A DNA stretch of 64,000 bases from Ulva prolifera. Taxonomy: Eukaryota > Chlorophyta > Ulvophyceae > Ulvales > Ulvaceae. The stretch spans positions 1,178,001 to 1,242,000 of the forward strand of contig JALAAN010000010.1 in the NCBI GenBank assembly GCA_023078555.1. The letters run 5' to 3'. The notes beneath the pieces are model-generated. The model was not told where the DNA came from and did no database searches. It saw only the letters and a list, made by a program, of their open reading frames with translations. Shown piece by piece: positions 6,981-48,363 of the stretch. Position 1 is the first letter of the stretch, and the number at the start of each line of letters is the position of its first letter. Made by a program: the position numbers and the translations under genes.

Positions 6981-9217
6981 TCACCGGGCAGAGCAGCGGC
7001 GGCGCGCGCGCCTGAGCGCGCCGTGAATCGTGCCAGCCGCCGGCCCGCCCAGCGTGTTGGTCGCGTCGCCCAGCACCGGCTGCTCGCCGACGGTGCCAGA
7101 GAGGCCCTTGGCCATGGAGCGCGTGGTCTTCCCCGCGCGCATCGCCGGCGCCGCGCCGGCCTTGGCGGCGCGACCGCCACGCTTCGTCACACCGCCGGCC
7201 GGCGCCAGCGGGCGCTTGCCGGCGGGGCGGCTGATCACAGGAGCCTCGGCATCCCCTGCACTCCCGTCCACAACTCAGCACTGGTTCAAACAATGTACAC
7301 CGATTGATCAGTCACCTCATACATAGCCACACTAAACAGCAGAGCGTGCTGCATCCAGTGTCAAACAGAAGCACCGGCTGCTTTCACTGCAGAAAGAAGC
7401 AAAGATGCATGGATCTGCTGCAGACGCACCCTCCTAACGTCAATCAGAGCACTTCTGCGTTCCCGCAAAGAAAACGCCCCCTCACGGACGCGCTCGCTGT
7501 GACGATGCCGTAGGGAGATCCAGGGAACAAATCACAAAAGCTCGCGCCATGGTACGGCAGAGCACAAGAGCAGAATACGTGGCACCGCAAACAGAAGCAC
7601 ACGAGCCTTGTCCACAATGTCAACTAGCAAGCAGCAGAACCCACCACCAGGCAGCCCGGCGCAGCGGGGTGACACACCAGCGCGCGACTCAGCGCCGCCA
7701 TCGCCGTCCGCGATCGTGCGCTCGCTGTCACCGCTTCGCTGCGAGCAGCCACCGCCGCCGCGCTCCTCAGGGGCGCCGCCGGGGGCCGTGCCATCGGGGG
7801 CCAGCACGCGCGCCTCGACGGTGGCCTCCGCCGAATCAGGCGAGGCAGCGGCGGGGCTGGGCGGGACCGGCTCGGCGGCGGGAGCGGGACCCGGAGGGAA
7901 GGGCACGCCGTGCTCCAGCGCCCACTTCTCGGGGTAGCCGCCGGGCACGGCGAGCGTGCCGGCGCGCACGGCAGCGAGCACCTCCGGCTGCAGGCGGTTG
8001 AGCACGAGGCAGTGCGCAACCGAGAGGTAGCCCTCCGCCAGGGCGGCGCTGCACGCGGGCGCACTGCGTCAGAGGCGCGGGGTGGGGTGTGGCTGCGACC
8101 GCAGGGGCGCCGTACAGACCGCGGGGCGCCGTACAGATGTGGTGTGCTGGGCGCGGTGCGCAGTGCACGCTGTACAGGCGTGAGCATCACGTATGTGGAC
8201 GGCTCACACTCAGGCCAGGACAGCAGGCATCGGCAAGGACGCCTCGCCGCGGCACCGTGCGGCTCTGCTGCGTGAGTGGCGACGAGAACACGGAATGGAG
8301 CGTGCTCCGGCGCGCGGCAGATGGCTGAATCAGGACGTGGCACCAGAGCCTGTGAGGAACAAAGTGCACAGGCTCCGGCAATCGCAGCGGGCCGTGTGGG
8401 GGGGCGTACCGGTACATGGTGCCGGTGGGCGCCCAGCCGCGGCGCGAGCGGTGGGCGGAGCAGTTGCAGAGGTCGCGGCAGCAGGGGCAGACCCAGTCCT
8501 CGGTTGCGTTGGCCTCGTCGACGTTCTCGCCGTACCGCATGAACAGGCAGTCGCCGCAGAGCTGGCCGAAGAGCGTGTGGCAGCGGGAGCAGGACGTGCG
8601 CTTGCCGAGGGTCTTCTGGCGGCACTGGTGGCACGTCACGCCGTCCACCTTGTCGTATATCTGCAGCCACGGGGCAGTGAGGTCACATGGGGGGTGCTGC
8701 ATGCAACGCGTGTGGCAATCGCATTTCTGGGCTGGCCTCACCACAGAGCCAATAGCTGCTGGAAGCCTGATCGCATATACAGCAGAAACAAACATTGGGA
8801 ATCCTTTGAAGGTGAAGCAGTTGACAGCACAGAGGCACAGACCAGCAACGCAGGCTGAATGCAAAAATCTCCTGATCTAGACGTTGGCGCTAATGTGAAC
8901 CACGAGCTGGACCAGTACTAAGCGGCGGAGCACATGCAGTGCAATGGAACGGAGCACGTATCACCACTTGGCGACAAGGAAAGGTGCTCACCCGCTTCCC
9001 TGACTGCGAGCAGAAGCCATCCTTAAATAGAGTCCACTCTTCATTTGCCACACCGAGAGCCAGCACGTGCTCCTCACTGTATGCCTCCTCCCTGCATGCT
9101 TCGATGAACTTCCCTGAAAACAAAGCTTTCCTCGCCCGGACGTGCTTGACTTTCTCAGTCGGGTCTACACCGGAAAGGTGATTCTCGTCGTAGTTCACTG
9201 CCCCTTTTCCAGCAATC
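6981..9217 (-). CDS. CDCA7-type zinc-finger protein (zf-4CXXC_R1)
   Basis: Spliced minus-strand gene; four exons were resolved with matching phases: about 9217-8992, 8660-8410, 8048-7648 and 7255-6981 (stop TGA). The second exon holds the diagnostic CDCA7 C-terminal domain. It starts IYDKVDGVTCHQCRQKT, then CSRC, CGDC followed by LFMRYGE, WVCPCC, and CNCS followed by RRGWAPTGTMYR. The third exon continues with LAEGYLSVAHCLVLNR, the plant-style end of the domain, then an acidic/Pro-rich region. The last exon is basic. CDCA7 proteins act in the nucleus, bind DNA and, with the HELLS/DDM1 remodeller, support maintenance DNA methylation. One odd feature: the last cysteine pair reads CNCSAH where the family usually has CSxC, so one ligand is His. 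The 5-prime end is not resolved: the first exon begins at a splice acceptor, so further upstream exons are expected. Confidence 0.88.
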
Positions 9218-9225
9218 CTGCCAGA

Positions 9226-12200
9226 CCTTCTGCTGCTGTCTGCAAACAGAAGACCGCATCAGAGCGAGGCCTACCGCAAATGCGACCATGCTTGGAAGCT
9301 GTGAACACATATGTCAATAATTATGCAGCGTATGGATGGTCAGTGCTGTTCTTGGGCGCTGGCGCGGGAGCAGTGCGGCATTCCACGCGAAGGCTCATTC
9401 AAACCTCGTTCGGGGTCTTCACTTGGGGTCATATTGGCGCACTGCTGGGCATACAGGACAACTTACTCCCATCACTCTGAAGCAGCGTCTACGTGCAACG
9501 AGATTCCAAATGGACTATATGGGAGCTCGGCGCGATAAAACGACCTACAGCTAGCCTCGCCGGTGGCCGGTGGCACTGAGGTAAAGATTGGGCAAGATAC
9601 ACAGCCATGCAGTAAGATAGATACGGGATAGGAAATAACAGCTTCCTGCTGGTTGTCTTGGCATGCGAGAAAATGACGCTATGGCCTGTCGGAGTGAAGG
9701 CGGGCGCCCGCAGGACGAATATGGACAACGGCTTGCTATGTTGAAGCCATGCAGCAAGCGCCAGATGAGGCAGAAACACTGCTATCATAAGAACATGTAT
9801 CGAACCTTGCGAAGATAGCATTCGGACGGCCGGCACTTTCCTGGGCCGGGAGGGCTGCTTCGATGGCTCTGCGACCACTTGCTGCAGCTCATGTGACGCC
9901 TGCAGCACAGTAAAGCATCACAGCTGTAACAACGCTATATTATGATGCAGGATGTGCCGTTCAAGTAGGCATGCAGCAGGCCCCTCTCCAGGCGGATCCC
10001 GGCCCCGTTCAAAAGAAGAGGACAATTACCGACAACACCGTGGCCATCTTCTCTTGCAGAGCCTCCATACGCCGCCTCCTCTCGACTTCGATGTCTGGCA
10101 TTGCGTCCTTGTGTACTCCTACTCGAGGCATGGCTCAGGCAGATCTTGATTCCACGGGCTCAAAGCCGTTCAAACGAATAACGAGTCCTCGACAGGATGA
10201 AACGAGCATGACCGGCACGAAGATGCTTCGATAGCGTCTCTGAATCAATCTAGACTTATCTCTGGATCAATGGGCAGTTCAAAAGCACATGAGCAATCGT
10301 GGCTCAGTGCTCCTAACGCATGGCTCCGACATAAGGGGGTGCCGCATGGGGTTCAAACGCACGAAGTATTCGTAGCAGCACTGGCACGCAGAACGCACGC
10401 TGAATGCACGATGATGGCAAGCAGTCCGCAAAAGATCCATTGCATGACATCAGTCCGCGCAACATCCTGTACATGCATGAAAAACGTGAATACCCGTGCA
10501 TACATCATAAGAGCATGCAAGCCGGCTTCCAGAGGCAAACTGGAGTACCTGGGGCACCGATCGAGCGGCCGCAGGACATTTCGATCGGTGCCCCAGGTAC
10601 TCCAGTTTGCCTCTGGAAGCCACCAGTTTCAGCTGGCCCAGACGAGGCAGATTGGCTACGAGGCAACGGAAGTCAGCCGAAAGTTATCATCTGGTGTAGA
10701 TGCCATACCACTCCGAACCTGCCTGAATGCCTGCCTCCATGTGTGTCAAACGTGTGTGTGCATGCCAAGGTGGACCATACTGTTCATGCATGAAAAGTGT
10801 ACCAGCACCATGGTGTGTACTGTTCATGCATGCATGGATGCTTTTGAGAAGTGCACACCATGGTGTGTACTTTCAACAGCATGCATCCATGGCGAGGGAG
10901 CCCTGTTGTGGCCTTCCATCGATACCAAGGATCTGCGTTCGAGGAGTGGCTGCGGGAGAACAACAGGCCTCACAGGAGCACGATGAGACCATCCTCAAGC
11001 GATGCTGAACATCTGTGAAAGCTCTCTGCACAACACACTCGCAGTGCTTTCCATATGCTTTACAGTGGGTCACAGTACGCCAAGCCGTTTACTGTCGGGA
11101 CGGACAACGTCCTAGCACCGTGAACAAAGCAGCAGAGTTTTTATTAAAAAAAAAACCATGTTTCCAGGGCAGATTAGTTTGTCGAACAAATGCACTACAG
11201 TACCTTGGGATGGTTTCTTTCAATGAGACACAGTGAAACATCCCAGCCAGACTGAGCACGGCCCTGGACACGTCAAGACATGGTAGGAGACACTATCACG
11301 AGGGCACGGGGTCGCACATCCAGGCATAATTCTGTGCTTGTTGTGGGATCAGGCTGTGGCGGATGCTGGACTAACACCGCAGCAGCGTTTGTCAGCAGTG
11401 GGCACCCAGCTGTGTCCACAATCGTGGCTTCTAACGTCAGCCCACAAGAGAGGTAGGTATGTGTGAACATCTATATGCAGGCATTTGATAGCCTCTGGTC
11501 ACCTTGGCACCTGCACATGCTGTGCCAGCAGCTGCAGTATCTCGTGGCATTGTGTGATACCACCTGGCCGGCTGTGTTCAACATCACATAACACACACAT
11601 GCATCAGAAATGGGCAGGAACATCGAGATTATCGCTGCTCTTTTGGTCGGGACCGACATGGTTGTCAGGCAATTCAGAGCCTGCACAGCGAGATCGAATG
11701 CCGTGATACAAAATCCCGTTTCCTAGCACAAATGCATTGAACAGGTAAGAGCGTTCTGCCTTTTAACCGGCCGAGAGTGCATACGATCAATCGACAGCTG
11801 CTGCAGCCAAAGTAGCTGCAATGTTGATGGTGATCATCGGCCCGAGGGCTCTTGCAGCATCGACAAACTGCCGGAGCACGTCCGAGACAAACCTTTCGGG
11901 CTGCCGGTCGCATCACTCGTGTCCAAGCGTTTCCCGATGTTACTCAGAAGTGCTATCTCGATCACGAAGACAGGCATCTCTGCGACGCGTACAGTGAGGC
12001 GCCGTGTGTCGACGGACTTCTGCAGTTCCGTTACGTTAAGAGTGGTCAACGCAAGGGATACAGAACAGAATCTTCAACCTACAACAGGTATAAACTCTCT
12101 GATTGGTGGTTAGTGACGACCGCCAGTGTCTCAACGTCAGAGCTGCTGTCAGCTCCTGTAGTCGACGCTGGGAAATGCACGTCCAATACAAACATATTCA

Positions 12201-12229
12201 ATAAAGATTGCCTAGTTGTCACGAAGCGT
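9226..12229. other. Intergenic sequence with hairpins, no gene recognised
   Basis: The missing 5-prime exon(s) of the CDCA7-like gene may lie at its left edge. A minus-strand frame at 9489-9908 has one hydrophobic stretch but no recognisable domain. A 238-codon plus-strand frame at 10270-10986 runs through the 10.5-kb inverted repeat and looks spurious. A degenerate direct repeat of CACCATGGTGTGTACT occurs near 10807-10872. Confidence 0.45.
10524..10621. repeat. Perfect 41-bp inverted repeat (long hairpin)
   Basis: Arms 10524-10564 and 10581-10621 are perfect reverse complements over 41 bp, separated by a 16-nt loop that contains a NotI-like GCGGCCGC. The left arm starts GGCTTCCAGAGGCAAACTGG. 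A transcript would fold into a long perfect stem of the kind processed into small RNA. The sequence shows only the symmetry, not transcription. Confidence 0.97.
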
Positions 12230-12303
12230 GGTCTTATAGCTCAGTTGGTTAGAGCGTGGTGCTAATAACGCCAAGGTCCTAGGTTCGAGCCCTGGTTGGA
12301 CTA
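12230..12303 (+). tRNA. tRNA-Ile (anticodon AAU)
   Basis: 74 nt. The D arm is GCTC-AGTTGGTTA-GAGC. The anticodon stem TGGTG/CGCCA carries loop CTAATAA, so the anticodon is AAU (Ile, AUU codons). The T arm is CTAGG-TTCGAGC-CCTGG, with a discriminator A. The acceptor stem GGTCTTA/TTGGACT pairs with two G-U wobbles and one U-U mismatch at pair 6-67. No intron is present. A TTTT run at about 12345 could end Pol III transcription. The core matches plant tRNA-Ile(AAU) closely. The acceptor mismatch leaves some chance that it is a decayed or remodelled copy. It lies 1.7 kb upstream of a tyrosine recombinase gene. Confidence 0.88.
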
Positions 12304-12739
12304 TCTTCTCGTCAGACGTAGGATAAGCACTTAAGAGCCTACACTTTTGGTCGAAGCCGCGGTGCGGGGGCGGGTCGAAGCGGGGACCCTGGCGGGGCGC
12401 GCGACGCGCGACGGAGTCGCGGGCGCGCACACGCACACCGAGGCGAGGCGCGGCGGCAGGCCTGTCAGCGAAGGGACACGGAGGGTGACAGCTGTCGTCA
12501 ACCCTGTCAGGTGCAGGCGCTTGCAGCCAATGTACGACGCAGTGCACCGTGGCCAGCACGGGGGATTCCGGATGTGGAGACACGCCGGCGGGCGAGCGCA
12601 CGGGGCGCGCGGGCCGTGGACGTGTACAGTATATTACAAAAGAGTGGACGGGAGAAAACAAACACTGAAACCGAATCTCATGCGAATCGACAGCAACACA
12701 CACTCACACACACACGAACACTACAACCGCACGCACAAC
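12304..12739. other. GC-rich intergenic sequence
   Basis: CGCG-rich stretch between the tRNA and the end of a minus-strand gene. A CACACACA tract lies at about 12700-12716. No gene recognised. Confidence 0.4.
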
Positions 12740-13580
12740 TCAGTCCGGCAGGATCGCGTCCTCCAGGCCCGCATCATACCGCAACCCCTGCTCCCGAGAG
12801 ATGACAAGCCCAGACTTCCGATACATATCCGCATTGCCGCGCTGCAATGACACCGACAACACCCGCAGCGCCCACTGGAGAAACGCGCCTTTGGAGATGC
12901 GCCCACTGGCAGCAGCCACATCTGGACGTGTACAGTTGGATACGGCTATGTAATCATGCATACGTACATGCAGTTCTCGTGACGATCGGGATAAGGGCGC
13001 GGGCATGGAAGCGGGGCGTGGATTCGCACGCGAGAGTTGGGATATGGACGCGAACATGGGCGCACATGGAGACGGGATATGGACGCGTACATAGGAGCGC
13101 GAGGCGCGGCGGCGGGCAGGTAGCACGTGGGCACGTGGAGTGCACGCTGCGTGCGGCAGGATGCAGGACGCGAGCCGACGGCGGTCGGCGACGCGCCTCG
13201 GCGCAGACGTATCTCGAGAAACGCCGCTCTGGGCGCGGGCGAGGGCCGGAAGGCAGCACCGGCGGGCCACCGGCGGGCCACGGCGGGCAGGGGCGCCTGC
13301 AGCGACGCGACCGCGCGACACCCCATCACCGTAGGAGCGTGAACACGGGCGGGCTCCCGCAACAGGGGGAGCCTATCCGGATCGAAGGGCTGAGACACAC
13401 GGCTCGCAACAGCGGCGCCCAGGCCTCCGGTCGGCAGCGCCGCGTCCTCAAGGCGCGCGTGACATGGTGGTGGCAGCGAGAGGACGGGGTGACGTACGTG
13501 CGAGGCGGCCACGCGGGCCACGCGCGGCAGGCAGTTATCCACGAGGTCGCGCCGCACGACGCAGCAGGCGCGGACGACCT
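12740..13580 (-). CDS. Partial spliced gene, unknown
   Basis: Tentative minus-strand gene. The last exon (12921-12740, stop TGA) follows a CACGTCCAG acceptor and reads GRISKGAFLQWALRVL then SGLVISREQGLRYDAG, with low-complexity-free codon usage. Two candidate upstream exons give compatible phases. One is 13389-13347 (starts PFDPDRLPLLREP). The other is 13580-13498 (contains VVRRDLVDNCLPRV) with a strong GTACGT donor. The 5-prime end was not found. It could start near the TATA box at 13793 and share a bidirectional promoter with the recombinase gene. The 12.95-13.11 kb intron contains degenerate copies of a unit containing GGGATATGGACGCG. No family recognised. Confidence 0.35.
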
Positions 13581-13792: not shown

Positions 13793-13800
13793 TATAAAAG
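13793..13800 (+). promoter_or_regulatory. TATA box (TATAAAAG) of the recombinase gene
   Basis: A consensus TATAAAAG in otherwise very GC-rich DNA, 226 bp upstream of the ATG at 14019. It would place the transcription start near 13825 with a leader of about 190 nt. The minus-strand gene to the left points away, so the region may be shared. Confidence 0.6.
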
Positions 13801-14018: not shown

Positions 14019-17000
14019 ATGGCCAGCGACGACGCCGACATCGCCGCGATGAGGTGCGTCCGTTGTCAATGACGTTCGGTGCTTGCAGCCCGCGGCTCGT
14101 GCACGCGTGCGTGCCGTTGAATGTCGGCGGCGTCGCCACATGTGGGCGGGCTCGAAGCGTCTCCCAGTCATGGCTGCGTACCGGCCGTGCCATCGATAGG
14201 GGTCGACTCGACATGCATGGCGGTGTGCGGTCGGGTGGGTTTGTGCGTGGTGCTGTTGATTCGGATGAGCTCGTCGAGATTCGGCGTGGGTGTCTGCGCA
14301 CGGCTGCCATCGGGGCATGCTGGCCCGGGTGACCCACGGGCTGCGATTCACGGCCGGAGCGTCGGGGCGTCACGTTCGTACACAGCTGCTCCAGTGTGCA
14401 CAGGTGCTCCAGTGGCGCGGCTCCGCTGGCCAGGCGTCACAGCTGGCGGGGCAGGCGGCGCGGTTCAGGCCCGTGCACGCGCACCGCACTCGCAAGCCTG
14501 CGCACACGGTCGTGCGTGGGCGGGCCGCCGACGGCAACATGTCTGTGCAGGGCACGCTACGAGCTCAACCCCGCGGGCGAGGCGCTCGTGGAGGAGATGG
14601 CGCGGATGGGCATCACGGGGGAGCGCGTGCAACAGGCACGTGCGTGCGTCAACGCCGCTGCGGTGCGAGCCGGCGAGCGCGGGGAGCCCTCGCGCGCCGC
14701 CTTTGCTGCGGCCAGCGGCGTCCCCCTGCCGAGATTGGCGCTGCCGCACCTCGACGACTGGCGACTGCTGCTGAGTCATCACCATCGCACGTTGTCGGGG
14801 CTGGAGAACGCGGAGCGCACCGTGCTGCGCTTCGCCCGCGCTCACTACGCCGTCCTCAGCACACGCGGGCTCGACACCGATCACTTGCTGCAACCAGAGA
14901 CGATGAAGGTGTGTTCCCATGGCCAGGCACTCCCCCGCCCTGCACCTGGCGTCTATGTGTGTTGCGTGCGTGAGTGTCTGGATGTGTGCTTGATCCGCTT
15001 GTTTCTTTCGTGGTGCTGCCCGCCTCGCCACCTTGGTGCTTTTGACACCTGCCCCCCCCCTGCACCCGGCGGGCGTGCACAGGTATGTGAGTGCCTGCGT
15101 CCGGTTCCGCTGACAGCGTGTGGGCGTGTGCAGCTGAACATGTTCCAGATGATCGAGTCGTGGCGCACGATGCCACGGGATGTGTTTACCGCGATTCTGC
15201 ACATTTTGTTGTACACGAAGCAAATCGGCAGCAGGCAGTCGCTGGACGCGTACATGTACACGGTCGGCTGCTGTTGCAAGGCCTACTATGCGGCTGTGGA
15301 CGAGGTGCGTACTTCGGAGTTCGCGCACACCGCCTTCGGCTGCCGCCTGTCATGCTGAGCGTGCGTGTGTCCTCCGCGCGATGGCCGACCGGGACCCGCC
15401 GCCTGTTGCCCGGACTGCGCGGGCGCCGCTGCAGAGTTTTGGTGCGGGGTGACCACAGGGGCGCCGATCTGCAGGTTGTCGAGTCGCCCAGCCCGTTCCA
15501 GCGCTTCTCGGCGCTCGTGAAGGGCGTGCACATGCACATCAAGGGCTCGCCGCTCGGCGGCGTCCGCAAGATCACGCCCCTCACGCACGGCCAGATCATG
15601 CGAACCGTGGAGTCCATGTATGTCGGGGGCTTTGGCATGATGCAGGTGCGCACCCCCGTACGCAGCGGCGGTGCAGACCGGGGCGGCGACCATGCAGCTA
15701 CCCCGAGCCTTGGCCCCTTTCGCCTATGTTCCCGGCGCGTCGTCAGCCATTGGCGCTGGCACAAGCCGAACCTGTCTTTGCAGGCTCGCGTTGTTTTCGC
15801 ATTGACGGCGATCGCCGGCCTGCGCACGCCGTTCTTCCAATACTGGCGCTGGCAAGACGTGGAGCTCATCAAGGTCCCCATGTTGCGAGGAGAGGTGATG
15901 GAGGCGACGGCCGGGGTGCTGCACGACCGTGACACGCAGGTGTGGCCTCGGCGCCTTGATGAGCGTGCCTGTAGCCACCCCTTGTCATCGCTGCAGCCCA
16001 TGCCGATCGAATGCTGTGTGCTTGGTTGCGTCGCTTGCTCCTGTTGTCTGATTGCGCCGCCGAGGCATCCGCCCTGGCGGGTTATGACGGGCGTAGACTG
16101 TGCAGATGGGCTTTGCATTTGTCAGCCATCACGTCGTCAACAAGTGCCCGAACCAGTTCGGGACACCGGTACTGGCGCTCGACCCGACGGGGCAGCGTGT
16201 CTCGCCCTCCCTGCCGGTCGTCGGCAGCCTCCTCGTGCAGCTGGGGCTGGTGATGGGCGTCTTTGATGCGGAGCAGATCGTGAGCCTGCCGTACAACTCG
16301 CGCCTCTGTCCGAAGCCGCATGCACAGGAGTGGTGTGTCTCTTGCAACAAATGTGCATTACGCGGCCTGCATGCATGCGTGTGTCGTCGCCCGTGTTGCT
16401 GTGTGTCCGCCTGCACTGCCGCATCTCTGCATGTGTGATTGATTCCGTGCTGTGTTTCGGTCGGCCCCCCCGCGTATAGTGCAGTACCCAGATGTGATCG
16501 CTATGGCAGGCTGCCGGCACGCCTGCCGCGACGAGTACGTGGTTGGCGCAGTGGGGTGACCTGTGTTGCTGTCATGTGGCTCATCGGCCGGTGTGCGTGC
16601 TGGTGATTTTGCCCCTCGATCCGCTGCTGATTGCTGTGGTGTGTTGGCGTTGTGCCATGCGATGGCTCGCGACTGCCCCTTTGACTGCTACAGGTATGTC
16701 ATCTGCACTCAGCACGACATGTTCTTCCTGCCGCACATCAACGTGCCAGGCAATCGCATCTCGTGGCTGGTCGCGATGTGCGGCCTCCTGGCAGAGCCGG
16801 ACGATGGGGCGCAGGCGTCCACAGGCAAGGGCGTGCGCGTGGGGCCCCGCTCGCTGCGCTCGTCCATGGTGCTGCGCATGGTCCTCGGGCGCATCACATC
16901 TGACCGCGCGCCTGATGAGGTCCTCATGCGCCACCTCGGCACGTGGGTCCAGAACGCAACGGCCGCTGCCATGGTCCACTACTTCTCCAGCCGCGGCGCG

Positions 17001-17093
17001 GCCGCGACTCTTGCCGGCATGGTGCGCCACCTGTTCTGGAAGGGCGTGGAGGACATGGCTTGGTGCTCTGTGCGCAAAGCGCAGATGCGATAG
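14019..17093 (+). CDS. Tyrosine recombinase (Crypton-like), 8 exons
   Basis: Exons 14019-14053, 14551-14908, 15134-15304, 15475-15645, 15784-15939, 16106-16279, 16485-16534 and 16694-17093 join in phase to 504 codons plus TAG. The start ATG sits in a good context (CCAAGATGGCC). Residues 190-245 resemble a core-binding domain (SALVKGVHMHIKG, then ITPLTHGQIM). The catalytic domain shows box I, AIAGLRTPFFQYWRWQDVEL, with Arg259. A beta-hairpin Lys310 lies in HHVVNKCPNQFGT. Box II is RSLRSS with Arg427, where the usual HxxR is RxxR. HLGTW follows with Trp456 in the position usually His or Trp, and the nucleophile is Tyr468 in MVHYFSS. Such enzymes cut and rejoin DNA by a phosphotyrosine link and mobilise Crypton-type elements. 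A cysteine-rich ribbon-like stretch (CMDC...CSRC, about 17106-17164) lies just downstream in the same frame and may belong to the next gene. That boundary is unsure. Confidence 0.85.
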
Positions 17094-17319
17094 TTTTGGC
17101 CCATCTGCATGGACTGTGATCGCACGTGTGCCCCTGGTAGCGGTGTGTTCTGTAGCCGGTGCAAACGCGTGTTCAGAGAGGACTAGCTATCGTGGCTTCG
17201 CGACGGGCGTTGCGCGCCGCCGCTGCAGTAGGTGCAGGCACCTGCGTTCCAAAGGCACCGGTGGCCACGCTAGCCGCTGGACGCGCGGCTTACGGTGGTG
17301 ACGGCAGGTCGCTGTGCAG

Positions 17320-20300
17320 GCACAGGCTAACATCACGGGGGACGCCCGGGGAATGGAACATGCGCGCACGGTCACGCGCGTCGGCGGCGATGCAGGAGCC
17401 GTCGGCCTGCTGGCCACGGCACAGGAACAGCCTGAGCGCGAGCTGTTCCTCTTCATCGCCTTCCAGAAATCCAAGGACGGTGCGGCACAGCAGGCCGTCC
17501 TCACGGAGATGTCCAAGCTCCTGGCGGATCATGTCGGGGGCCACCAGGTCGGAGGTGCCGGCAAGGTCTCGACGATCTACCACCGCATCATGCGGCGGGT
17601 GGCACCGTATCCGGGGAGGTGGCTCCTCCAGAGCGCGATGCCAGCCCACCGCCTCGCCCAGCTCCCAGGTGCAGCAAACCGCCCTGTGATGTGCACGTGT
17701 TTCTGCGTGCCCGCCTGCTCTGCCGCATCTCTGCGTGCGTGTGTTTCTGTGCTGTGTTTCTGTGTGTCCGCCCGCTCTGCCGCATCTCTGCATGTTTGTG
17801 TTTCTCTGCTGTGTTTCTGTGTGTCCGCCCGCTATGCCGCATCTCTGCGTGCGTGTGTTTCTGTGCTGTGTTTCTGTGTGTCCGCCCGCTCTGCCGCATC
17901 TCTGCGTGCGTGTGTTTCTCTGCTGTGTTTCTGTGTGTCCGCCCGCTCTGCCGCATCTCTGCGTGCGTGTGTTTCTGTGCTGTGTTCGGCGTGTCCGCCC
18001 GCTCTGCCGCATCTCTGCGTGTTTGTGTTTCTCTGCTGTGTTCGGCGTGTCCGCCTGCTCTGCCGCATCTCTGCGTGCGTGTGTTTCTGTGCTGTGTTTC
18101 TGTGTGTCCGCCTGCTCTGCCGCATCTCTGCGTGCGTGTGTTTCTGTGCTGTGTTTCTGTGTGTCCGCCCGCTCTGCCGCACCTCTGCATGTGTGTGGTG
18201 CTGTGTTGAATGTCTTTGCCACCAGTGGGGGCAAAGGGTCTGATTCCACGCTTCTGACTGTGGCGAGGTGATGTAGAGCGTGCCGCCGAGGTGGTCGGCA
18301 AGCTCACGCGTGCGGTGGCCACGGCGCGCAGCGTCAAGGACAAGTGGCTGAAGGGCGCCCTGGCTGTCACCGGCGTGGACAAGGCGGGGCTCACTGTCGA
18401 GAAGCGGAGGGCGGCGCTCGCACCTCCGCGCACGACTGTCGAGGACGTCGAGATCGACTTCCCGCACGGACCGTTTGGCGAAGACGGGGATGACGCCACC
18501 TCGGACAGCGCCTCAGACAGCGCAGACGTGGAGATGCTGGACTCCGACGGTGAAGATGCGGGGCCGATGGATGACACGGAGCAGGACCGCGACGGTGAGC
18601 TCGCAGAGCTCGTGCAGAGCACCATGCAGCTCGGCGATCTTGGGACCGCCGACGAGGAGATGGTTCACGACGCGCTGGAGGAGGAGCTCAGGAGCATTGA
18701 GGAGCAGCCGGCGCCTGTCGCCGAGGGCGGCGCAGACGGGGCCACGGACGCCGGCATGTCGTCGCTCGTGCCCCCCCCCGCTGCAGAGGCCGCTTCCGGA
18801 GAGCCAGAGGGCACCCCGGCAAAGACCATCACGGCTGCCGGGGAGACGCTGCACCTGCACCTGTCGCACCGCGCGGCGCTCGGCGTGCTGTCGAACAGGC
18901 AGTACCACGTGCACACGCTCACCAAGCATCCCGCGACCGGAGAATCTGTGGTCCCGTATCCGCCCGGGATGCGGGTGCCCCAGGGCGACCCCGTCTTTGA
19001 GACGGACTACGTCACGCGCTGGGCGCACAGCAGCGGTGAGGAGTTGCTGCAGGAAGTGCGCGACGTGCTGGGCGGGGTGATCCCGACCGTGCCGGCGCGC
19101 TTCAGCAACATGACGAAGGCCGTGAAGAAGCTCTTCGCGGAGACGAGGATGTGCCTGGTCCAAGGCTGCTTGAATCTGGCATGCACAGAGACGGCAAACT
19201 TCAAACTGCATGCATGCACCGACCACCTGAAGGGGGACATGCGCGTGAAGGGCACGGATGAAGACGTCCGCCTGTGCACATCCTGCCACGGGAGTCGCAG
19301 CGTGGAGGAATTCCGCGAGGGCCAGGGCAGCCAGATCACCGGCGGCCTCTGCCATCGGTGCCGCATCGATCGCCGGAACAAGGCCATCATCCGCCGGAAC
19401 AAGAAGAAGGGGACCAACAAGCCGACCCTCCCTCTGCCTGCGCACCGACCGCCGTCCGCGACCGAGCTCGAGAACGGCAAGGACATCGGAGGCGCATACA
19501 TCGAGGAGCGTCGCAGGGCGGCGCAGCGCAATGCTCTTGCTGGCGCGCGCCCCGGTGAGACCATGCTGGAGCCGTTCCTGGTGCTTGCAGCGCACGACCG
19601 GGACCGTGAGGGGCACGAGCGCCAGTGTGTCCGCGTGGGGTGCCAGAACGACAGCAGGAGCGACAGGCTCATCGCGACGCTGTGCAGAGCGTGCTGCCAG
19701 GTGGGATCTCTGGTGTGTGGTGGCCATGCATGACCTTGCGCTGGCTGTCCCATCGGTGCTGCATCTCTGCGTGTGTGTGTGGGGTTGCTGTGCTGTGTTC
19801 GACCTGTCCGCCTGCTCTGCTGCATCTCTGCATGTGTCTGTTCCTGCTACGCATCGACTGTAGCTAGTGCATCACTGAGCAGTGTCGCTGGTCTCATGTC
19901 ACACGAGCTGACGCGCATGCGTGTGTGTGGTGCAGAGCGTGCGGGGGAGGCACTACGCCCTCGTGGCCGTCATGGACGTCGACGGCGACGCCACTGGCGA
20001 GCTCATGTTCGTGAGGTACTGCAGCGGCTGCTGGCGGGGCCTCCCGCTGCACATGTTCCGCACCGGCGTGGGGCAGTGCATCCGCTGTGTCAAGGGCGAC
20101 GCCGCGTTCCGCCTGCGGGCAGAGTCTACGCCGCGCCCGGAGCGAGCACTGGACCCCGCCACGGACGATCTTCAGCATTCGACACCTGCCACGGCCCTGA
20201 TCATGGACCACGCCTATGGCCCGGGGCTGTGCAAGGCCAAGGGCTGCTGGGATCCTGTGCTTCGACATGGCAGCGGTCAGCGCAACGAGACGCGCCCCCT

Positions 20301-23300
20301 GCCGATGTGTCTCCGCCACATCAAGGTGCACACCTCTCACTTGTGCGTGCACACAGCCGCCTGCTCCTAGAACCTGGTCAGCTGCATGCCCATGCAACGC
20401 GTGGGTCGTGTTGAATGGGAGGTAGACAGCAGACGGGGCCATGCATATGCTCTGCCGACATTCGTACCCGTGTCGGGCTGCTGCGAATGTATGCGTTGCA
20501 TCCTGTGTTATGTAGACATGTCGCAGCTTAATTTCTGAGGCCACAGATGTCGCCGCTCTGCACGCTCGGTCGTGTGCAGGCATGGTATGTGAGATCCGAG
20601 AAGACGGGGCTGCTGCAGCGCTGGTGCTCTGGCCATGAGCGGTGGGAGCACCCTGACGTCTTTGGGGGATTCTGGCATGCCTGCCAGAATCGGCTCAGTC
20701 CGAGCCGCCGCGCCGAAGCAGAGGCGATTGCAGAGCGCATCGCGCTTGCACGCGCAGATGGCACGCTTGACGGCGCCCCGCCCGCGGCCGCTGCGCCTGT
20801 GCCCAGGATCACCGCCGAGCCCGCGGCGATGCCGGCGGCTGCAGCTGTGCATGCGGTCGACGAGACTGTGGAGGAATGGAGGCCGGAGTGGGGCCGGCAG
20901 ACCGCCGTCGTTAACGGCTACAACGCGTGCAAACAGGTCAAGGAGTACCTCGGCACGGAAGGCGCGATCGACTTTGTGGAGATCATCCGGGGCAGCAGGG
21001 CTGGCAGCGGCGATGATGACATCGCGGCTGCAGTGACCGCACTGTACCAGAGGCTGGCACAGACGACGCAGCCGGCCGCGTCGGCGATCGGGTTCCCGGC
21101 AGCCCCGGCACCGGCGCCGACGACATGTGTGCGCTGCGGCGAGCCCACAGCAGCGGGCGCCTTTGTCGGCAAGTCAGTGTGCATCCTATGCGCCGCATCA
21201 GGCATGGAAAGCCTGACGCTCGTGGACGTCGGCAGTGCCCTCGAGTCGGGGATGCTGTATGGTAAAGGTGCGGCCTGTCGTGCGCTGCATGATCTGAGGG
21301 CGTAAACGTATCATGTGTCAGCCTCCGCGTTGTGGTGTACTCTCGCAGACTGCTGCTGTGTACCTGTCGCATGTGTGCAGCCGGCGGCTCATGTGCCATG
21401 GACCGAGTCCACGGCCATGCCTGTCATAGTGTTAGCTTTCCGTTGCAGGGCGGAGGGTCAGGAGGCAGGCCACCCTGAGGGACCCCAAGCTGTCCGCGAC
21501 TGAGGGGCTGACGGACGCGCACGCGCGCTTGGCCGACGAGCTGAGGAAGCGGAGGTCCGTCAGCGTCGCCGGCGTCGCAGGTGCCCCTGCGATGAAGCGC
21601 CAACGGCACGTCAAGAGCCAGTCGGCCAGGAATCAGCACCAGCGGCGAGTTGTGCATGACGGCCTGGTGCTGTCGTGGCGTCCGGAGGAAGGTCAGGAAC
21701 CGCCCGCAGAGGCAGGTGTGTTTGCTGCTTCTGCCTATCGATCGCAAGGCTGTTGCGGCACCGGCACCGCGCTGTTGCAGGAACCTGATGCCTGGTGTTG
21801 TGTTCATGCCTGCATGCATGCGTGTGCAGCCTGCCGCCCGGCCCGCATGCATGTCCGCGGCTGGTCTGCTACAGTACTTGCAGCATGAGTTTTGCTCTAT
21901 ATCGATGCCGGATTCTGCTGTGTGTTGGTTGTCATGAGTCGGCGCTCTGCCATAACCTACACTCTGTAGTACAATCGCCCGCTGTGCAGGCCCCGACGTC
22001 GAGCTGCCCGAGGCCCCAGTGGCGACGGACGCAGACCTGGCCATGCTGGCCGCCGCACGGGCGTGCAAGGCGCACGGCCTGGAGTGGCTGGCTGACACCG
22101 ATTGCACGCGGGCGGCGATGGAGGGCGTCGCGGACAAGCTGCCTCAATTCGCAGCAAGGCATGGCAGGAACAACTTCGCATCTTTCGCCATCGTCGACGC
22201 CGCCGGCACTCGGCCGGTGCTGCGAGCTCGCAAGAGCGTCTCACCACCGGGATGGCAGCAGGTGTGGCTTGTCGTCCTCGCGTCGTGTATGTACCCCGTG
22301 CCCTGTGCCCTGTGAAGCGGCTGGACCGGCATGTCAAGTTGATTCGGGTGTGCATTTCTTGTTGTGTTTATCTATTCCAGCTCACTCCTCTGTGATTATC
22401 GTGCATGTGCTTGACACCGCCGGGTGTCGCTGAGGCTGCAGCCTAGTACATCTGCCTGCCCGGTTGCTATGCACCTGCTGTGGCTGCAGCCTGCATCTCC
22501 AGGCATGAGAGCCAGATTCTGTGCGTGATGCAGGTGCTCTGTGCCCGCCCGCCAGGTCTGCGGGCCCGGATCACGGACGACTCGGACACCGGCAGTGACG
22601 GATCGTGGTTCGGCTGTGTCGGCGTCCATGTGCGCGGCGAGAACAAACCGCACAACGTGAAGAGATTGTGCGGCGAGGTGCTCATCCGAGAGCGCAGGCC
22701 CCGCCGTGTCGCGGCAGGGTCGATCGGTCAACAGCCCGACCAGTATGCCGCAGTGCAAGTTGCGCGCGACACATTCGCGCTGCTCCTCGACAGGCTGCAC
22801 GCCCTGTTCACAGCGGCGCCGATGATGCCTGTGCAGATTCTGTCGCTGACATTCCTCGAGAACTGCAAGGGTCTGGTCCCCGCCGTCCTGGATCGACACC
22901 AGCCGACGCTGCTGATTCCGGTGCATCTCTACACTGCGACGATCGCCCACCACCGGCACAAGCACGGCGCCGACAGCAACGGCAGCGTGCGTGAGAAGAC
23001 CGCGCTTGCCCACTCCATTGGGTACTGCACCGTTCGACTCGCCTGCAGCCTGCAGGACGCCTGCGAACCCCGTCCGCTCCCGGACTCGCTCTGGGGGACT
23101 GTGCGAGGGGCTGCTGTCGCGACCATGGTCGCGTTCGACACCCGGGCGTACTCGGAGTATGTGTCTGGGGCGACCCTCTTCTGTGGCCAAGCGAAGCGGG
23201 ACCTCCCCGGACAGATCCTGCTGACGCATCACACGGCCATCCTTTCCGGACTGGTGATGGCTGGCGCTGTGGGTGGTGGGCCGACGACGGCAGAGGCGCT

Positions 23301-26115
23301 GCGCGATTTCGTCGCAGGAGGCTCTGCCCCCGGCACCGGAGTCGTGCCAACGCGTGAGTATGCGCAGGAGCCTCGCAGCGCGTCCAGCCCCTGCAACGGA
23401 GCAGCCGCCATGTCCGGCGAAGCAGGATCATCCCGAGCTGCACTTGCACCCGACGCCTGCGGCGGCTCGCCAGCAGCGGGATCTGATCGCATCGCGGCGC
23501 CGACGGCTGCCACAGACGCTGACCTCTCCGCTGCTACGGTGCTGACCGCCGCGTCCGTCAAGCAAGACGCGGCGGCCATCGACGACACTGACCACCCCAG
23601 GCTGGAGGGACACGTGTTTGAGATCTCTTCCGATGACGGGGCGATGGACACAACTGGACAGCCGCGTCATGCAGAGCACCCGCCCCACCCTGCGCAGCAG
23701 CCCGCAGCCGCTCAGCCCGCCACCGCAGCGCAGCCCCCGCTGGCAGCCGCACCACCCGCTGCTGTGGAACAGGCGGCGGCTGCTGCGCCGGCTGCCGTGA
23801 ACCTCGCTGCAGCAGTCGTCGGCGCCGCGGGTTTGAACGCGGCGCCTCAGCACGTTCAGCAACCGCCCCCGCCCGACACCCCCGGACCGTCTCTGAGTGA
23901 CATGACAGCGTCGCAGCACCTGCTGAACATCAACAGCTACAAGTACGACCTGACCGCTGTGCCAGCGGAGATTCGCGCTGCAATCAAGACCGTTCGAGCT
24001 GAGGTGCGTGCGGCTGCCTCACTGTGGCTTTGATTGCGTTGCTCTGAACAGATGCTTGCTATGTACTGGACAGCCTGCTGCTATGTGGGTGTGGTCACGA
24101 GTGTAGGCCGTTCGATCTGAAGCTCCTGCTGTGGGTTGACCTCTGTGTAGGCCCATGACCCCCTTAGAGTTGCTTTTCCGCGGTCTCTGTGAGCCAGCAG
24201 CTCTAGATTATTTGACTGCTATAGAAAATCGATTGCCTAAAGGCTGTGGTGTGCGTGCTACAACAAGGGGCTGTGCAGGACATTTTCACCGCCCTGGCAG
24301 ATGGCCCCTTCGATGCCGTGATTGTCCTCGGCTCTGGAGGCAGCGGCAAGACGATCGTGGGTCGAAAGATTTTCGATCTCGCGAAGCAGCGCTACGGCGA
24401 GGACGGGGCGGCGAGATGTGCGAACAGCGGCAGGGTCGCCGTGAACGTGGGCTGCACGACGTTCGCCCGCCGCCTGAAGTACGGCTCGTACACGCCGCAT
24501 GCGGAGCATGCATACAGCAACATCACAGCTGCAGAGGAGGTCGCGCAGATCCAGATGCTGATCGCGGAGGAGGTCACTGCCGTGCCAAACCGGCTCCTGC
24601 AGCAGCACCTGGGGGCGCGCACGGCGGCGCGCAGGTCTGTGAACCTTGCTCACGAGCGCCTCCAGCAGCAGCCCCCCTACACGATCGAGGGACCTCTGGG
24701 GGGCCTCAAGCTGATCGCCAGCGGCGACCACCTCCAGCAGATTGTGGTCACAGGGAGCGTCGGCCGCGTCCAAGCCACGGGCGTCCCTGTGCCGTTCGTG
24801 CCGCCACAAGGCACCGGTCGACGCATCTGGGAGCTCTCTGAGCTGGCAGACGCCAAGGTGCTCGTGCTCGTGGTGCACGGGAACCACCGGCTCCTCGGCA
24901 GGATGCACGAGCTGCACCGCACCGGGTGCGACCTGTGTATTTTGCTGCCGTTCAGATTATTCCTGTGCATGTCGCTGCTGTCTCATTCCTGTGCGCTGAT
25001 GGGTGTTAGGACGCGTGCCAAACTGCTGTTCCCCGCATGTGCAGCTGCTACGCTCGTGCAGCCACCATGTTTGTCTGGTAGCCGTTCGCGTGTGGCTCTG
25101 CAGTGGATGGACACATGTGATTCTGTCGTTTGGCCTCTGACTTCCGTGTTGGCTCACCTGACATGCATGACGCTGTGAGTTTGGCCACGCAGGCAAGACG
25201 GCCACATCTCTGAGGACTGCATGGACCTCCTGACCGCCCGCGTGGAGTCGCTCGACGACCCGCAGTGGTTCCTCGTCTTCGTCCGGCCGGCGGGGTACCC
25301 TGAGGGAGCGCCTCCGGGCCACCCACAGCTGCCGTTCTGCATCGTCGCCGTCGCGACCTTCGCCGAAACAGAGGCGATCTTCTACAATCACGTGCGGCGG
25401 CTGCAGTCCTACCAAGACGCGTTCGGGCTGCTCCCGGCGCCCGAGGAGCATGAAGCCGCTGGCATCAAGATGGGGCACCTGGCGGGCAGCGTGCAGGAAC
25501 GTATCGTGCAGATCACATGCGTGCGCGAGAGCAGGTTCCTTTTCAGGTACGCCGTCTACAGCAAGTGATTGTATGACATGGCCGACTTGTTTTCACGAAT
25601 GCATGTCATGCATGCCACTGCGCCTCGTTTAGCATGGCGCCGCCGCAACTACAGTAATTGTGAATGCACTGAGATTGGTCGGTAGAGGGCGCACCGTCCC
25701 ACATGACATGTGTGTATTGTGCAGCACGGACGGGACATGCGCAATGGCACGGCAGCAGCTCGCTCAGGCCAAGGTCTGGTCGCGCCTTGTGCTCGCCCGG
25801 AAGGAGCCGCTCATCACCACCCACGCCACGGCGCGGCTGTCGCCGGGCATGTACGCAGTGATCAAGACGTTCAAGCTGGTGTCACGTGCAATGGTCATTG
25901 GCCATGTGTGGCAGGAGCTCAACGTGCACATGCGTGACTGCTCCAGGCGCAGGGGATTCTCCCGGACGCAGGGCGTTATCGTCGACGGCATTCTGGACAA
26001 GATTGTGCCTGATCTCGTGACGGAGGCGCTGCTGCCGCTGGAGCACAAGGTCTCGAGACGATATCTTTTGGTTACAAATATGTCAAGAAATTTTTACATG
26101 ATATGTTGTTGCTAA
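17320..26115 (+). CDS. Zinc-ribbon / Pif1-like helicase protein of the element
   Basis: Ten exons in phase: 17320-17668, 18277-19700, 19936-20325, 20580-21267, 21449-21715, 21990-22261, 22534-24003, 24279-24925, 25193-25546 and 25725-26115 (2,083 residues). The first exon begins at a CTGTGCAG acceptor, so the true start is upstream or the gene is joined to the recombinase. The N-terminal third is acidic. Next come zinc-ribbon modules: CTSC...CHRC and CSGC...CIRC, with C-x4-C...CxxH pairs between them, then CSGH...HAC and CVRC...CILC. A Pro/Ala-rich linker precedes the helicase. Motif I is VLGSGGSGKT, motif II QMLIAEEVTAVPN, motif III LIASGDHLQQIV, a motif IV-like VHGNHR, and late FSRTQGVIVDGILDK resembling the TQGxT motif. 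Pif1-type enzymes unwind DNA 5-prime to 3-prime. Motif II has Glu-Glu rather than Asp-Glu. The last 20 codons enter AT-rich repeat DNA, so the natural end may differ. Confidence 0.75.
17707..18217. repeat. 57-bp minisatellite within an intron (9 units)
   Basis: Nine tandem units begin at 17707, 17764, 17821, 17878, 17935, 17991, 18047, 18104 and 18161; seven are 57 bp and two are 56 bp. Each contains CTGCCGCATCTCTGCGTG. The array fills the 608-bp intron 17669-18276. Single related units lie in two other introns of the same locus (16384-16440 and about 19750-19845). Because 57 is a multiple of three, the array is open on both strands and makes spurious 300-residue frames. Confidence 0.95.
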
Positions 26116-27340
26116 TTGACTGACCGGGTTGGGGGGGGCTCACAGGCTGTGCTGGCTCGTTGGCGCCACGAGGACGTGCCGCACCACCCTTGGGCCCTTC
26201 GCGACAGTAACTGCATAATGCTATATGACATCTCAGTCATCAGTGAGATGGGCGCAGTGTGATCATTCCATGGCGCCCCCATTTTTACGCTTGCGCGTTG
26301 TTGGGTCCTGTTCTTCAACCCTCGTAGCCACCCGTGTTCGGCTGCAGCCATGGCACAGGCTCCTACCTCGTTGCTCAAGGGTCATCCACATACATACATT
26401 ATCAAATGGAATGTTGAAGTTGATTACTTCTGTCTGTTTTTTCACCTTTGACACGCTGACAACCACGATTGTCAAACGTCGGTGCATGGTGCGTGGCACT
26501 GCGCTTGCACCCCCCTAGCCACTGAAGCCTGCTCACCGTTTACGGACACGCCGAGCATGCAGAACGACAGCACACGCATTATAAATCGATGGGCCATTTC
26601 TCACGCGATGAAGCGTGATAATTTAATTTCACATACAACGAGGATGATCGATGTGTTAACATATATGGAGGGGGTCATCCACTCCCGCTAAAGGGTGCCC
26701 CCCCCCCGGGCGCGCAAAATTCGCTGCGAAACAGAGAAATTGGGGAAGGTTTCCACTATTGTTTAGGTAGGTTGGGAACTCGTAGTGTTCGATCTCAGTC
26801 TTGGGAAAAGTCCCCAAGGTTCGTACCCTTTTCGGCACAAATCAGCCATTCTCCCCAATATCGACAGAACGAAGAGATAACGTCCCCAATTACTCGCCTT
26901 TGCTTCCAGAACACGAACCACGCCATAAATAAGCTACAATATGTTGCTATCTTTGTGGTTGGTGTATTTCCGTTGTATGCGGGTGACCCGACACAGTGTG
27001 TACAGTACGTAGTGTCATTCGGCTCGGGGGGGGACCACCTACCTCAACGGCCCGGGGGGGGACCACCCTTTAGCGGGAGTGGATGACCCCCTATATATGG
27101 GATCTTCAAATCTGATGAATCGAGGGCCGGTTTATGCATAAATCATGGCAATGGCCAGGTGCTCAGGATAGGCTATCCACGGCAAAGACCCTCTACATCC
27201 TGCTCAAAAGCAACGGCATTAGCAGCAAGGGCATACAGAAGGCAGTGGCGAACCTAATTATAATGGCGGAGAAATATGTTGCAATGAATGGTGTTCGAGG
27301 TCGTGACCGCTCGCGCCGCCAGTGCAGCTGACGTCCATCA
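26050..27340. repeat. Tandem duplication of about 850 bp, copy 1 (interrupted)
   Basis: This AT-richer segment matches 27340-28200 along its length. Shared landmarks are GACAAACGTCGGTGCA-like and CACCGTTTAC-like blocks (near 26470 and 26536 here), then GCAAGGGC...AGAAGGC[AG]GTGGC (near 27222). Copy 1 is longer only because a 424-bp MITE sits inside it. It directly abuts the last readable helicase exon. The common part may once have encoded protein, since both copies retain a similar stretch reading SSKG...QKAVANL, but no intact gene was found. Confidence 0.75.
26661..27100. mobile_element. MITE with 8-bp target-site duplication
   Basis: A 424-bp element (26669-27092) flanked on both sides by ATATATGG (26661-26668 and 27093-27100). 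Terminal inverted repeats of about 40 bp start AGGGGGTCATCCACTCCCGC, are identical for 29 bp and then differ slightly around a C-run. The interior is AT-rich and has no transposase frame, so it is non-autonomous. An 8-bp duplication points to a hAT-like or another 8-bp-TSD superfamily. The exact TSD and high TIR identity suggest a recent insertion. Confidence 0.93.
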
Positions 27341-28200
27341 CGGAGGATTTTTTTGTCAGAATGTTGTCAGATCACCTCTATGTAGGACATGTTTGTCCTG
27401 ATGGGGGGGTCATCCGCTGTGCTGCCTCGTTCGCGCAGCGAGGCTGCGCTGAACCTCCCTGGCGCCCTTCGAGACATGTGATGCATCAGCCTTTATTTCT
27501 TTTCAGTCATCTGTGAGGTGGGTGTGGCCTGTTTCCTCCGTTCTACCGCTTCCTTAGCGCTTTTGTGTTGTTGGTAGCTTCCATGAACCCCCATAGCCAC
27601 CGTTATTAGGCTGGCACAGTATTCTTCATCGTTATTCCGGGGTCGTCCATATAGACGAAATGTCAATTTAAGTGATACCATTGATGTATTTTGTCTACAT
27701 ATAGACGTACAACACACTGTTCAAGCCGCCGTTGACAAACGTCGGTGCACAGTGCATGGGACCGCGCGCGCACCCCCCCAGCCACTCCAGCCCCCCAGCC
27801 ACTCCAGCCTGTTCACCGTTTACAGGCACGCCGGGCGTAAGGCAAACACGACACACAGTGAAGTGCAATTGCTCTAGCAATTGTGCGTGATCGCATCCTC
27901 GAATCGAGGATGGTAGATATGTGTGCATGTGCAAGATCTGATGTAGGACCGAGCACCTATGCCTGCAGGACATGTGGTCATGTCTGATATACACAGGTGA
28001 TCCTCCGGAGCTCCTCCACATGCTGCTCATTGTCAAGGCCAGCAGCAGCAAGGGCGTGCTGAAGCGCATGCAGAAGGCGGTGGCAAACCTAATGACTGTC
28101 ACGAGGGCGTGCTGAAGCGCATGCATACATACATACTGTACCATGCAGCAACGAATGGGGAACGGGCTCGCGACCGCCCACGCCGCTACTGCGTGTGCAC
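27340..28200. repeat. Tandem duplication of about 850 bp, copy 2
   Basis: Uninterrupted partner of 26050-27340. It contains short internal duplications, for example CCCAGCCACTCCAGCC twice near 27777-27808 and GAGGGCGTGCTGAAGCGCAT-like phrases near 28050-28120. It also has palindromic CAATTGCTCTAGCAATTG near 27866. No intact coding frame recognised. Confidence 0.72.
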
Positions 28201-30671: not shown

Positions 30672-30714
30672 GTGGCGATCCATTGGTACAGCGATATTGC
30701 CATTGGATTGCCAC
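30672..30714. repeat. Short hairpin, GTGGC-ATCCA family, member 1
   Basis: Arms GTGGCGATCCATTGG and CCATTGGATTGCCAC pair with two mismatches around a 13-nt loop. A closely related hairpin lies at 37279-37321. Confidence 0.85.
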
Positions 30715-31437
30715 TATAGTATACACGTGGGTTCATGAAGCATATGGTCCATACCACAAATCACTGCTCTGCCAAAGGCCGTCAACAGTGTTCTCGTTTG
30801 AAAGAAACATCTCATGTCACGACTGAAATGCGACTCACTTGCAATGATGCAGGTCCGAGCTCAGACATTGTATGTGCAAGGTTGTGAATGTTTGTAGACA
30901 TCCCATCTCGGACTTGACATTGCAGTCGTGTCTGACATGGAATGCGTTCATGCCCTGATGTGATTTCCCTACTTGTGTTTGCCCTGGTACGGCACACTGG
31001 AAGTGTATTCATGCTGATCATGCTACATGTAGACATGAACCATGTGCTCGCACACAAAACATCGCAGATGTCAAAGTTAAATTTCACTTCACGATCCATG
31101 CTGCGACTGGGGCAAGGACTGCGGGCTGTGGGCGCAAAACCAGTTGGAATCACAGGGCTCCTGCAGCTCTCTTGTAGACACGCGTTCCTGCTGCGAAGAG
31201 GCCATTCGCCTGCCTGGACAGCGGGAGCCAACTCACTACGGAAGCTTACATATCAAGTTGTCAGATTGTAGTCGAATCAGGCAAATATGCTCGAATTCGG
31301 GCTGTCGACGGTTGGATGCTGTCCTGTTCAAGATCCCACTGTCTCGTCACAGCTACCGACGCCACGCTGCTCCCTTCAATCACAACATACATGAGTTAGT
31401 CTGGAGCAGGTAATGGTGCGCTGGCAGGTGGTACATC

Positions 31438-47700: not shown

Positions 47701-48363
47701 AGTTGCCCTGTGCATCACACTCCTGACTCGTGCAGATTCCGTTGACGCACGAGCGGCTGCGTGAAACAATCGGGCCAATGATCGGCGTCGCAGGCGGTGG
47801 GGGGATCTCTGGAGCGGCAGGGTTCTCGGCGGGGGCGCCGGGACCGTCTGTGATGCTGCCGTCAGCAGGCAGAGTGTCGCTCACGGTCCTGCAGTTTCCC
47901 ACCGCGTCGCACTCCTGACTCGTGCAGATCCCGTTGACGCACGAGCGGCTGCGGGAAACAATCGCGCCCACTGCCGACGGAGAGGCTGGCGGCTGCTCCG
48001 CTGAGGTGGGTGCATCAGGCGGCGCAACCACAGCGCCGCCGCCGTCCTCGGCCCCACCATCCGCATCGCTTGTCGTCGTGCAGGCGCCGGCCGCATCGCA
48101 CACGCGCGTCGTGCAGACGCCGTTGACACACGTGCGGCTGCGGCTTGAACGGCCGGTCGTGCCCCCCAGCGGCGGCCGCGGCGGCAGCCGGGCACCGCTC
48201 CTCTCGGTACAAACCCTGCCCTTGCACTCGATGGTTTTGCAGACGCCGTTGGAGCAGGTCGTGCTGATTGACGTGGCCGCGTAGCCGCGTCGGCGGTGCA
48301 CGGGGCGCGGCCGGCGGGCGCGGGCGCGTGGCGCCGGGGCCGGGTTACTGGGCGCCTCTGGCT
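44765..48363 (-). CDS. Cysteine-repeat surface protein, 11 repeats, GPI-like tail
   Basis: A long exon (48363-45833, 843 codons) and a last exon (45184-44765, 140 codons with TGA) join in phase. The long exon has 11 copies of an about 25-residue motif, consensus SRSRSCVNGICTTQECDAQG followed by NCRT, with four cysteines each. They are spaced by Pro/Glu/Asp/Ala-rich linkers of 25-70 residues, one of which contains a run of EDPVTAVEDP-like 10-residue repeats. The last exon starts TSGPDTNATVTATNGNTTQT with N-glycosylation sequons and ends in a hydrophobic tail (SVFAAALVVVSILVLAAV) typical of a GPI-anchor signal. The first exon, with the expected signal peptide, was not found; the long exon starts at a TTTGCAG acceptor. 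Likely an extended cell-surface or extracellular protein. The motif is not one I recognise from a named family. Its neighbour at 50.6-52.4 kb is a short paralogue. Confidence 0.78.

Follow-up and report, generated by a model that had tools for sequence, protein, structure and literature searches.

Two adjoining intron-rich gene models on the plus strand form a locus that we tentatively read as a divergent eukaryotic tyrosine-recombinase (YR) DNA element, Crypton-like in its working. We put the probability of this reading at about 0.4, and on this best explanation a single long gene is likelier than a pair. Two components of gene 2 are well supported, namely a Pif1-like helicase core and a pair of SBP-like zinc modules. 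The YR motifs of gene 1 are indicated only, by the order and spacing of residues in the predicted protein. The locus lies in a 64-kb stretch of DNA, analysed whole and referred to here as the window, which has a GC content of 59.9% and was taken as eukaryotic because spliced genes are present in it.

The locus is intron-rich and has the structure of real genes (Table 1). Rebuilding the exons gave 15 introns across the two genes (6 and 9), with lengths of 138–608 nt and GT-AG borders in all 15, and the phases close without stops. GC at codon positions 1, 2, and 3 is 0.648, 0.457, and 0.860 in gene 1 and 0.697, 0.513, and 0.803 in gene 2. Splicing and codon-position GC are therefore strong evidence that both genes are real coding sequence. 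A preliminary description of this DNA had proposed a first gene of 8 exons and 504 codons. An intron-containing gene does occupy that place, but it was rebuilt as 7 exons and 505 aa, and this model closes without a small extra exon between exons 6 and 7. The same-strand, 10-exon second gene was recovered by our rebuild as it had been described, with GT-AG borders and closing phases. The remark that both genes look intact by phase holds as far as the phases go, but "intact" is doubtful in view of the AT-rich tail of the last exon, the unrecognisable motifs V and VI of the helicase, and the EE at its Walker B position. The next TATAAA on the plus strand after the candidate promoter box is at 26580.

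Table 1. Features of the locus, in window coordinates.
Feature	Coordinates	Strand	Remarks
TATAAA box, candidate promoter of the locus	13793-13798	+	226 nt upstream of first ATG
Gene 1, YR-like	14019-17093	+	7 exons, 505 aa; GT-AG introns, phases close, GC3 0.86
Gene 1 exons	14019-14053, 14551-14908, 15134-15304, 15475-15645, 15784-15939, 16106-16332, 16694-17093	+	
Exon with box I-like motif AGLRTPFFQYWRWQDV (R259)	15784-15939	+	motif pattern
Exon with box II-like motif RSLR (425-428), LGTW (W457), and VHY (Y469)	16694-17093	+	
Candidate fusing intron (GTGCGC...CTGTGCAG)	17070-17319	+	in phase, locus-style splice sites
Gene 2	17353-26050 or 26115	+	10 exons; 2,073 aa including tail
Gene 2 exons	17353-17668, 18277-19700, 19936-20325, 20580-21261, 21449-21715, 21990-22261, 22534-24003, 24279-24934, 25193-25546, 25725-26050 or 26115	+	
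57-nt minisatellite, 9 copies, gene 2 intron 1	17697-18205	+	
Single diverged copies of 57-nt repeat	16372-16473 (gene 1 intron 6); 19757-19846 (gene 2 intron 2)	same strand	
SBP-like zinc module A (about aa 398-455 of gene 2)	exon 18277-19700	+	E 3.4e-4
SBP-like zinc module B	exons 19936-20325 and 20580-21261	+	E 4.6e-4
Pif1-like ATPase core: Walker A GSGGSGKT, EEVT at Walker B, GDHLQQ	24279-24934	+	
AT-rich tail of last exon	26051-26115	+	GC 0.29 vs 0.64 in rest of exon; doubtful as coding
Downstream direct repeat, two diverged copies	26133-26574 and 27403-27857	+	67%
MITE-like unit between downstream repeat copies	inverted ends 26660-26711/27050-27099		

Gene 2 carries both helicase motifs that had been reported for it, GSGGSGKT and GDHLQQ, as well as the reported zinc motifs. 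The PIF1 family (PF05970) matches a 217-aa piece of the protein over residues 14–163, from Walker A through GDHLQQ, with an E-value of 1.8e-5 and a score of 24.9 bits, 1 bit under the curated cut-off of 25.9; a longer piece matches at E 8.4e-5. Among PDB sequences, Pif1 chains were found at E 0.014 and 0.16 (the latter being 7otj), and a Dda-like helicase PHROG was found at E 0.024. In NCBIfam the sole match for gene 2 was RtcR, whose 19.6 bits fall far short of its cut-off of 650. Like Pif1 helicases (PF05970; PDB 8xak, 5o6b, and 7otj), gene 2 aligns Walker A, the Walker B place, and GD..Q in order. It differs from them in falling below the family cut-off, in having EE where Pif1 has DE (as seen at Walker B in the 7otj alignment, itself at E 0.16), and in its motifs V and VI, which are not recognisable by eye; GNHR could be picked out visually at motif IV. 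No Pfam match was obtained for the C-terminal 327 aa, a stretch that takes in a putative continuation beyond the last exon.

The two zinc modules share the Cys/His spacing of the SBP (SQUAMOSA promoter-binding) domain, PF03110, a green-plant family. Modules A and B score 21.3 and 20.9 bits against it, under the cut-off of 27, and they depart from that family also in occurring as two copies within a giant protein. When Cys and His were held fixed and the remaining residues shuffled, none of eight decoys matched SBP, and the best decoy match to anything had an E-value of 0.004. In the PDB, module A aligned to SPL13A (E 0.44), which ranked after an unrelated chain (E 0.15); module B had no PDB match. 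Together with the style of the introns, the likeness to a green-plant family suggests that the DNA comes from a green alga.

The most serious alternative to a mobile element, which we consider somewhat unlikely, is that the locus is a nuclear gene, or gene pair, either of the host itself or domesticated, encoding a zinc-module/Pif1-like protein whose YR-like domain is inactive or repurposed, and that it is fixed and immobile. The many introns and the upstream TATA box are consistent with such a gene, as is its single copy in the window, where the proteins of genes 1 and 2 found no match but themselves better than E 0.55. The neighbours also look ordinary, with a zf-4CXXC_R1 frame (E 9.8e-32) and a glycosyltransferase-like frame (E 1.3e-5, just under the cut-off), and domestication of Cryptons is reported in PMC3212892. 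Against a host gene stand the repeat-rich surroundings just downstream and the fact that no Pfam family covers the whole protein. On the preferred reading of a mobile element, the AT-rich tail of the last exon and the repeat that follows it suggest that this copy may be truncated at its 3′ end. An additional exon beyond 26050, with donor GTCTCG and an acceptor near 26144, found no support by eye.

The reading as a recombinase element depends on gene 1, whose protein has R259, K310, R425-S-L-R428, W457, and Y469 in recombinase order. All of the residues named in the preliminary description are thus present, although those after exon 6 (R428, W457, and Y469) lie one residue later than it stated. 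Three members of the R-H-R-Y tetrad stand in order, and the His place of HxxR is taken by Arg (R425). A two-box pattern that combines this order with its spacing was satisfied by 15 of 20,000 shuffles of gene 1 (0.075%), a figure that is optimistic because the regular expression was written after the protein had been seen and because the gene had been picked among many in the preliminary description. Single boxes are common among the shuffles (4.0% for box I, 7.7% for box II). The strict box I form, G.R.{8}W.D[ILV], occurs by itself in 0.05% of them, and one of nine known recombinases has it; the pair of boxes is satisfied by five of those nine. The two-box pattern was found in none of 150 window ORFs of at least 150 aa, many of which are too short to hold both boxes, and in none of 16 windows taken from gene 2.

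Profile and sequence searches of gene 1 fail. The preliminary description had named the failure of a recombinase profile to match as a refuting outcome, and no such match was found: gene 1 and its pieces matched no Pfam family, gene 1 matched no NCBIfam family, and its 260-aa catalytic part matched no PHROG. A 71-aa piece did match a PHROG, one without known function, at E 0.2. Comparison with PDB sequences returned unrelated chains only, at E 0.098 or worse, and tblastn against phages returned a single unannotated match at E 3. With our own profile of nine prokaryotic recombinases, gene 1 ranked 366th in a set of 3,010 sequences made up of gene 1, nine gene 2 pieces, and 3,000 shuffles, and hhalign of gene 1 against the same profile gave a probability of 0.63%; in both cases the best alignment fell on the box I-like stretch. 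With a box motif matrix, 1,020 of 1,500 shuffles equalled or beat gene 1, and the proposed boxes were not the ones picked. AlphaFold models of single exons had pLDDT values of 41.5 and 33.9 and carry no information on fold.

These failures, together with motifs that were chosen after looking, speak for the alternative that gene 1 is no recombinase at all, its likeness to boxes I and II being due to chance and an SBP/Pif1-like gene lying beside an unrelated orphan gene. We judge this unlikely: the two-box pattern is as rare among shuffles as given above, K310 is in a plausible place, and the strict box I form is rarer still, though just one of the nine known recombinases shares it. In addition, two stretches of gene 1, one before box I (...LVKGVHMHIKGS...ITPLTHGQIM...) and the other GTW...HYF...LAGM, look right to us when set against Crypton and DIRS recombinases. 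The call of a tyrosine recombinase made in the preliminary description keeps its motif order and the rarity of its two-box pattern, and the profile searches go against it. We estimate that gene 1 is probably a tyrosine recombinase by descent.

Whether the locus holds one gene or two turns on the 259 nt that separate the gene 1 stop codon from the gene 2 ATG. This gap contains no TATAAA, TGTAA, or AATAAA on the plus strand; the lack of polyadenylation signals counts for little, since none occur near gene 2 either. Joining the donor GTGCGC at 17070 to the acceptor that ends at 17319 produces a single open frame of 2,582 aa, including the AT-rich tail. Across the gap the frame is kept by a total of nine donor/acceptor pairs, and the case for fusion therefore rests on the match to the splice consensus. 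TGTGCAG occurs 13 times in 14019–26050, and seven of these occurrences are at assigned acceptors (7 of 15); the candidate fusing acceptor is one of the six that lie elsewhere. GTGCGY is found at 4 of the 15 donors and has 31 occurrences overall. On this evidence we lean slightly toward a single gene. The helicase gene does adjoin gene 1 on the same strand, as had been noted, but to call it a partner gene may be wrong in kind, since the two may be one.

Elsewhere in the window the best matches to the 57-nt repeat have an E-value of 0.097, and none is convincing. The repeat is common to introns of both genes and thereby ties gene 1 and gene 2 together. Its presence in three introns of the two genes points to possible intron-to-intron copying.

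Under the preferred reading of a recombinase element, the product would begin with a YR-like domain, continue with SBP-like zinc modules, and end in a Pif1-like motor. We infer every step of its mobility. The zinc modules would recognise the ends of the element. The YR domain would cut and rejoin DNA through Y469, so that a circle is excised and then inserted where a short site matches. The Pif1-like motor would open DNA at the ends, or would assist in copying or resolving the circle. Should gene 1 prove to be a recombinase, the locus would unite, within a eukaryotic element, a site-specific recombinase with a helicase of its own and with modules that bind DNA. It would then be relevant to the way recombinase elements are copied and to the spread of plant-type SBP modules. 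A stronger claim, that one 2.58-kaa polypeptide from a 17-exon gene, uniting a recombinase, SBP-related zinc modules, and a Pif1-like motor, defines a new superfamily of eukaryotic DNA element, is in our view unlikely.

It is useful to compare the locus with known systems. Cryptons encode a YR with GCR1_C and sometimes a second protein, a C48 peptidase, according to Kojima and Jurka (2011, PMC3212892); the word "helicase" is absent from the main text of that paper, and the Crypton tetrad is given there as R-H-R-Y. The locus resembles Crypton DNA transposons (CryptonF, S, A, and I) in having a eukaryotic YR-like gene, some of these elements also having a second protein. In contrast to Cryptons, gene 1 has Arg at the His place and matches no Pfam family at all, and so has no GCR1_C. 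Cryptons should also show short (4–6 bp) terminal direct repeats or defined ends, and no terminus was found for the single copy in the window. We have not filed the locus as a Crypton because it lacks the full R-H-R-Y tetrad and because its ends could not be placed from that one copy.

The captains of Starship elements fall in DUF3435; gene 1, by comparison, is without any Pfam match, and the locus shows no cargo. The likeness to Starships would be that of an element led by a tyrosine recombinase, as these fungal elements are described in PMC12134995. PMC3627910 mentions SNF2 and RecQ helicases in other DNA transposons. A eukaryotic element with a recombinase, its own helicase, and DNA-binding modules was not found among the literature matches listed, a set from which most subscription papers are absent. 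No paper in the literature searched brought together Crypton, Pif1, and tyrosine recombinase, and one, on a fungal genome, brought together Crypton and Pif1. Relatives of gene 1 were not found in IMG/VR or GTDB contigs, nor relatives of three gene 2 pieces in IMG/VR, in a comparison able to reveal close relatives alone. Absence from these collections, which are viral and prokaryotic, therefore says little.

The helicase of Helitrons and Helentrons is likewise Pif1-like, and a Helitron-derived or Helitron-like gene would also encode a very long protein with a C-terminal helicase. The length and C-terminal helicase of the locus do recall RepHel proteins, which exceed 1,500 aa and can exceed 2,000 aa (PMC6431247), but this origin is very improbable: the profile scan of gene 2 gave no Helitron, Rep, or HUH family among its Pfam matches, an absence that is no proof in so divergent a protein, and an HUH Rep module could not be recognised by eye. 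The whole locus was also considered as a DIRS retroelement and rejected, Pfam scans of gene 2 showing no reverse transcriptase.

Several other features of the window were recorded. A tRNA-Ile (AAT) at 12229–12305, complete by ARAGORN, lies 1.7 kb upstream of gene 1. Insertion targeted to this tRNA was considered and, within the window, rejected, because no match of at least 12 bp to the tRNA-Ile region lies beside gene 2. That region recurs in the window over at most 12 bp; this match, found at 57881 and well away from the locus, spans the tRNA 3′ end, and by our estimate about one of its kind is expected by chance. Between the tRNA and gene 1, a minus-strand open frame at 12741–12939 resembles a C-terminal exon, with ...LEDAILPD as its last residues, and has no Pfam match. 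The zf-4CXXC_R1 frame, at 8187–8876 on the minus strand, is presumably CDCA7-like. Downstream of the locus, 31441–36728 holds a coiled-coil gene with a membrane tail at its end that we take to be golgin-84-like, and the glycosyltransferase-like frame follows at 38774–39358 on the minus strand. An 876-aa open frame at 45743–48373, also on the minus strand, runs over a repeated stretch; its Pfam match to the RHS repeat (E 1.5e-9) may be a misfit.

Repeats are found elsewhere in the window as well. A tandem duplicate, 57161–59602 and 61235–63792, is 74% identical and includes a Cys-rich open frame; the part at 58518–59531 has no Pfam match. A dispersed repeat at 1239–1559, 54173–54531, and 54624–54947 has copies that are 86–94% alike, two of them forming an inverted pair. 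Hairpins occur at 10524–10621, with perfect 41-nt arms, and at 37278–37322, which is 89% self-complementary; a third, at 30678–30725, looks by eye to be related to the latter.
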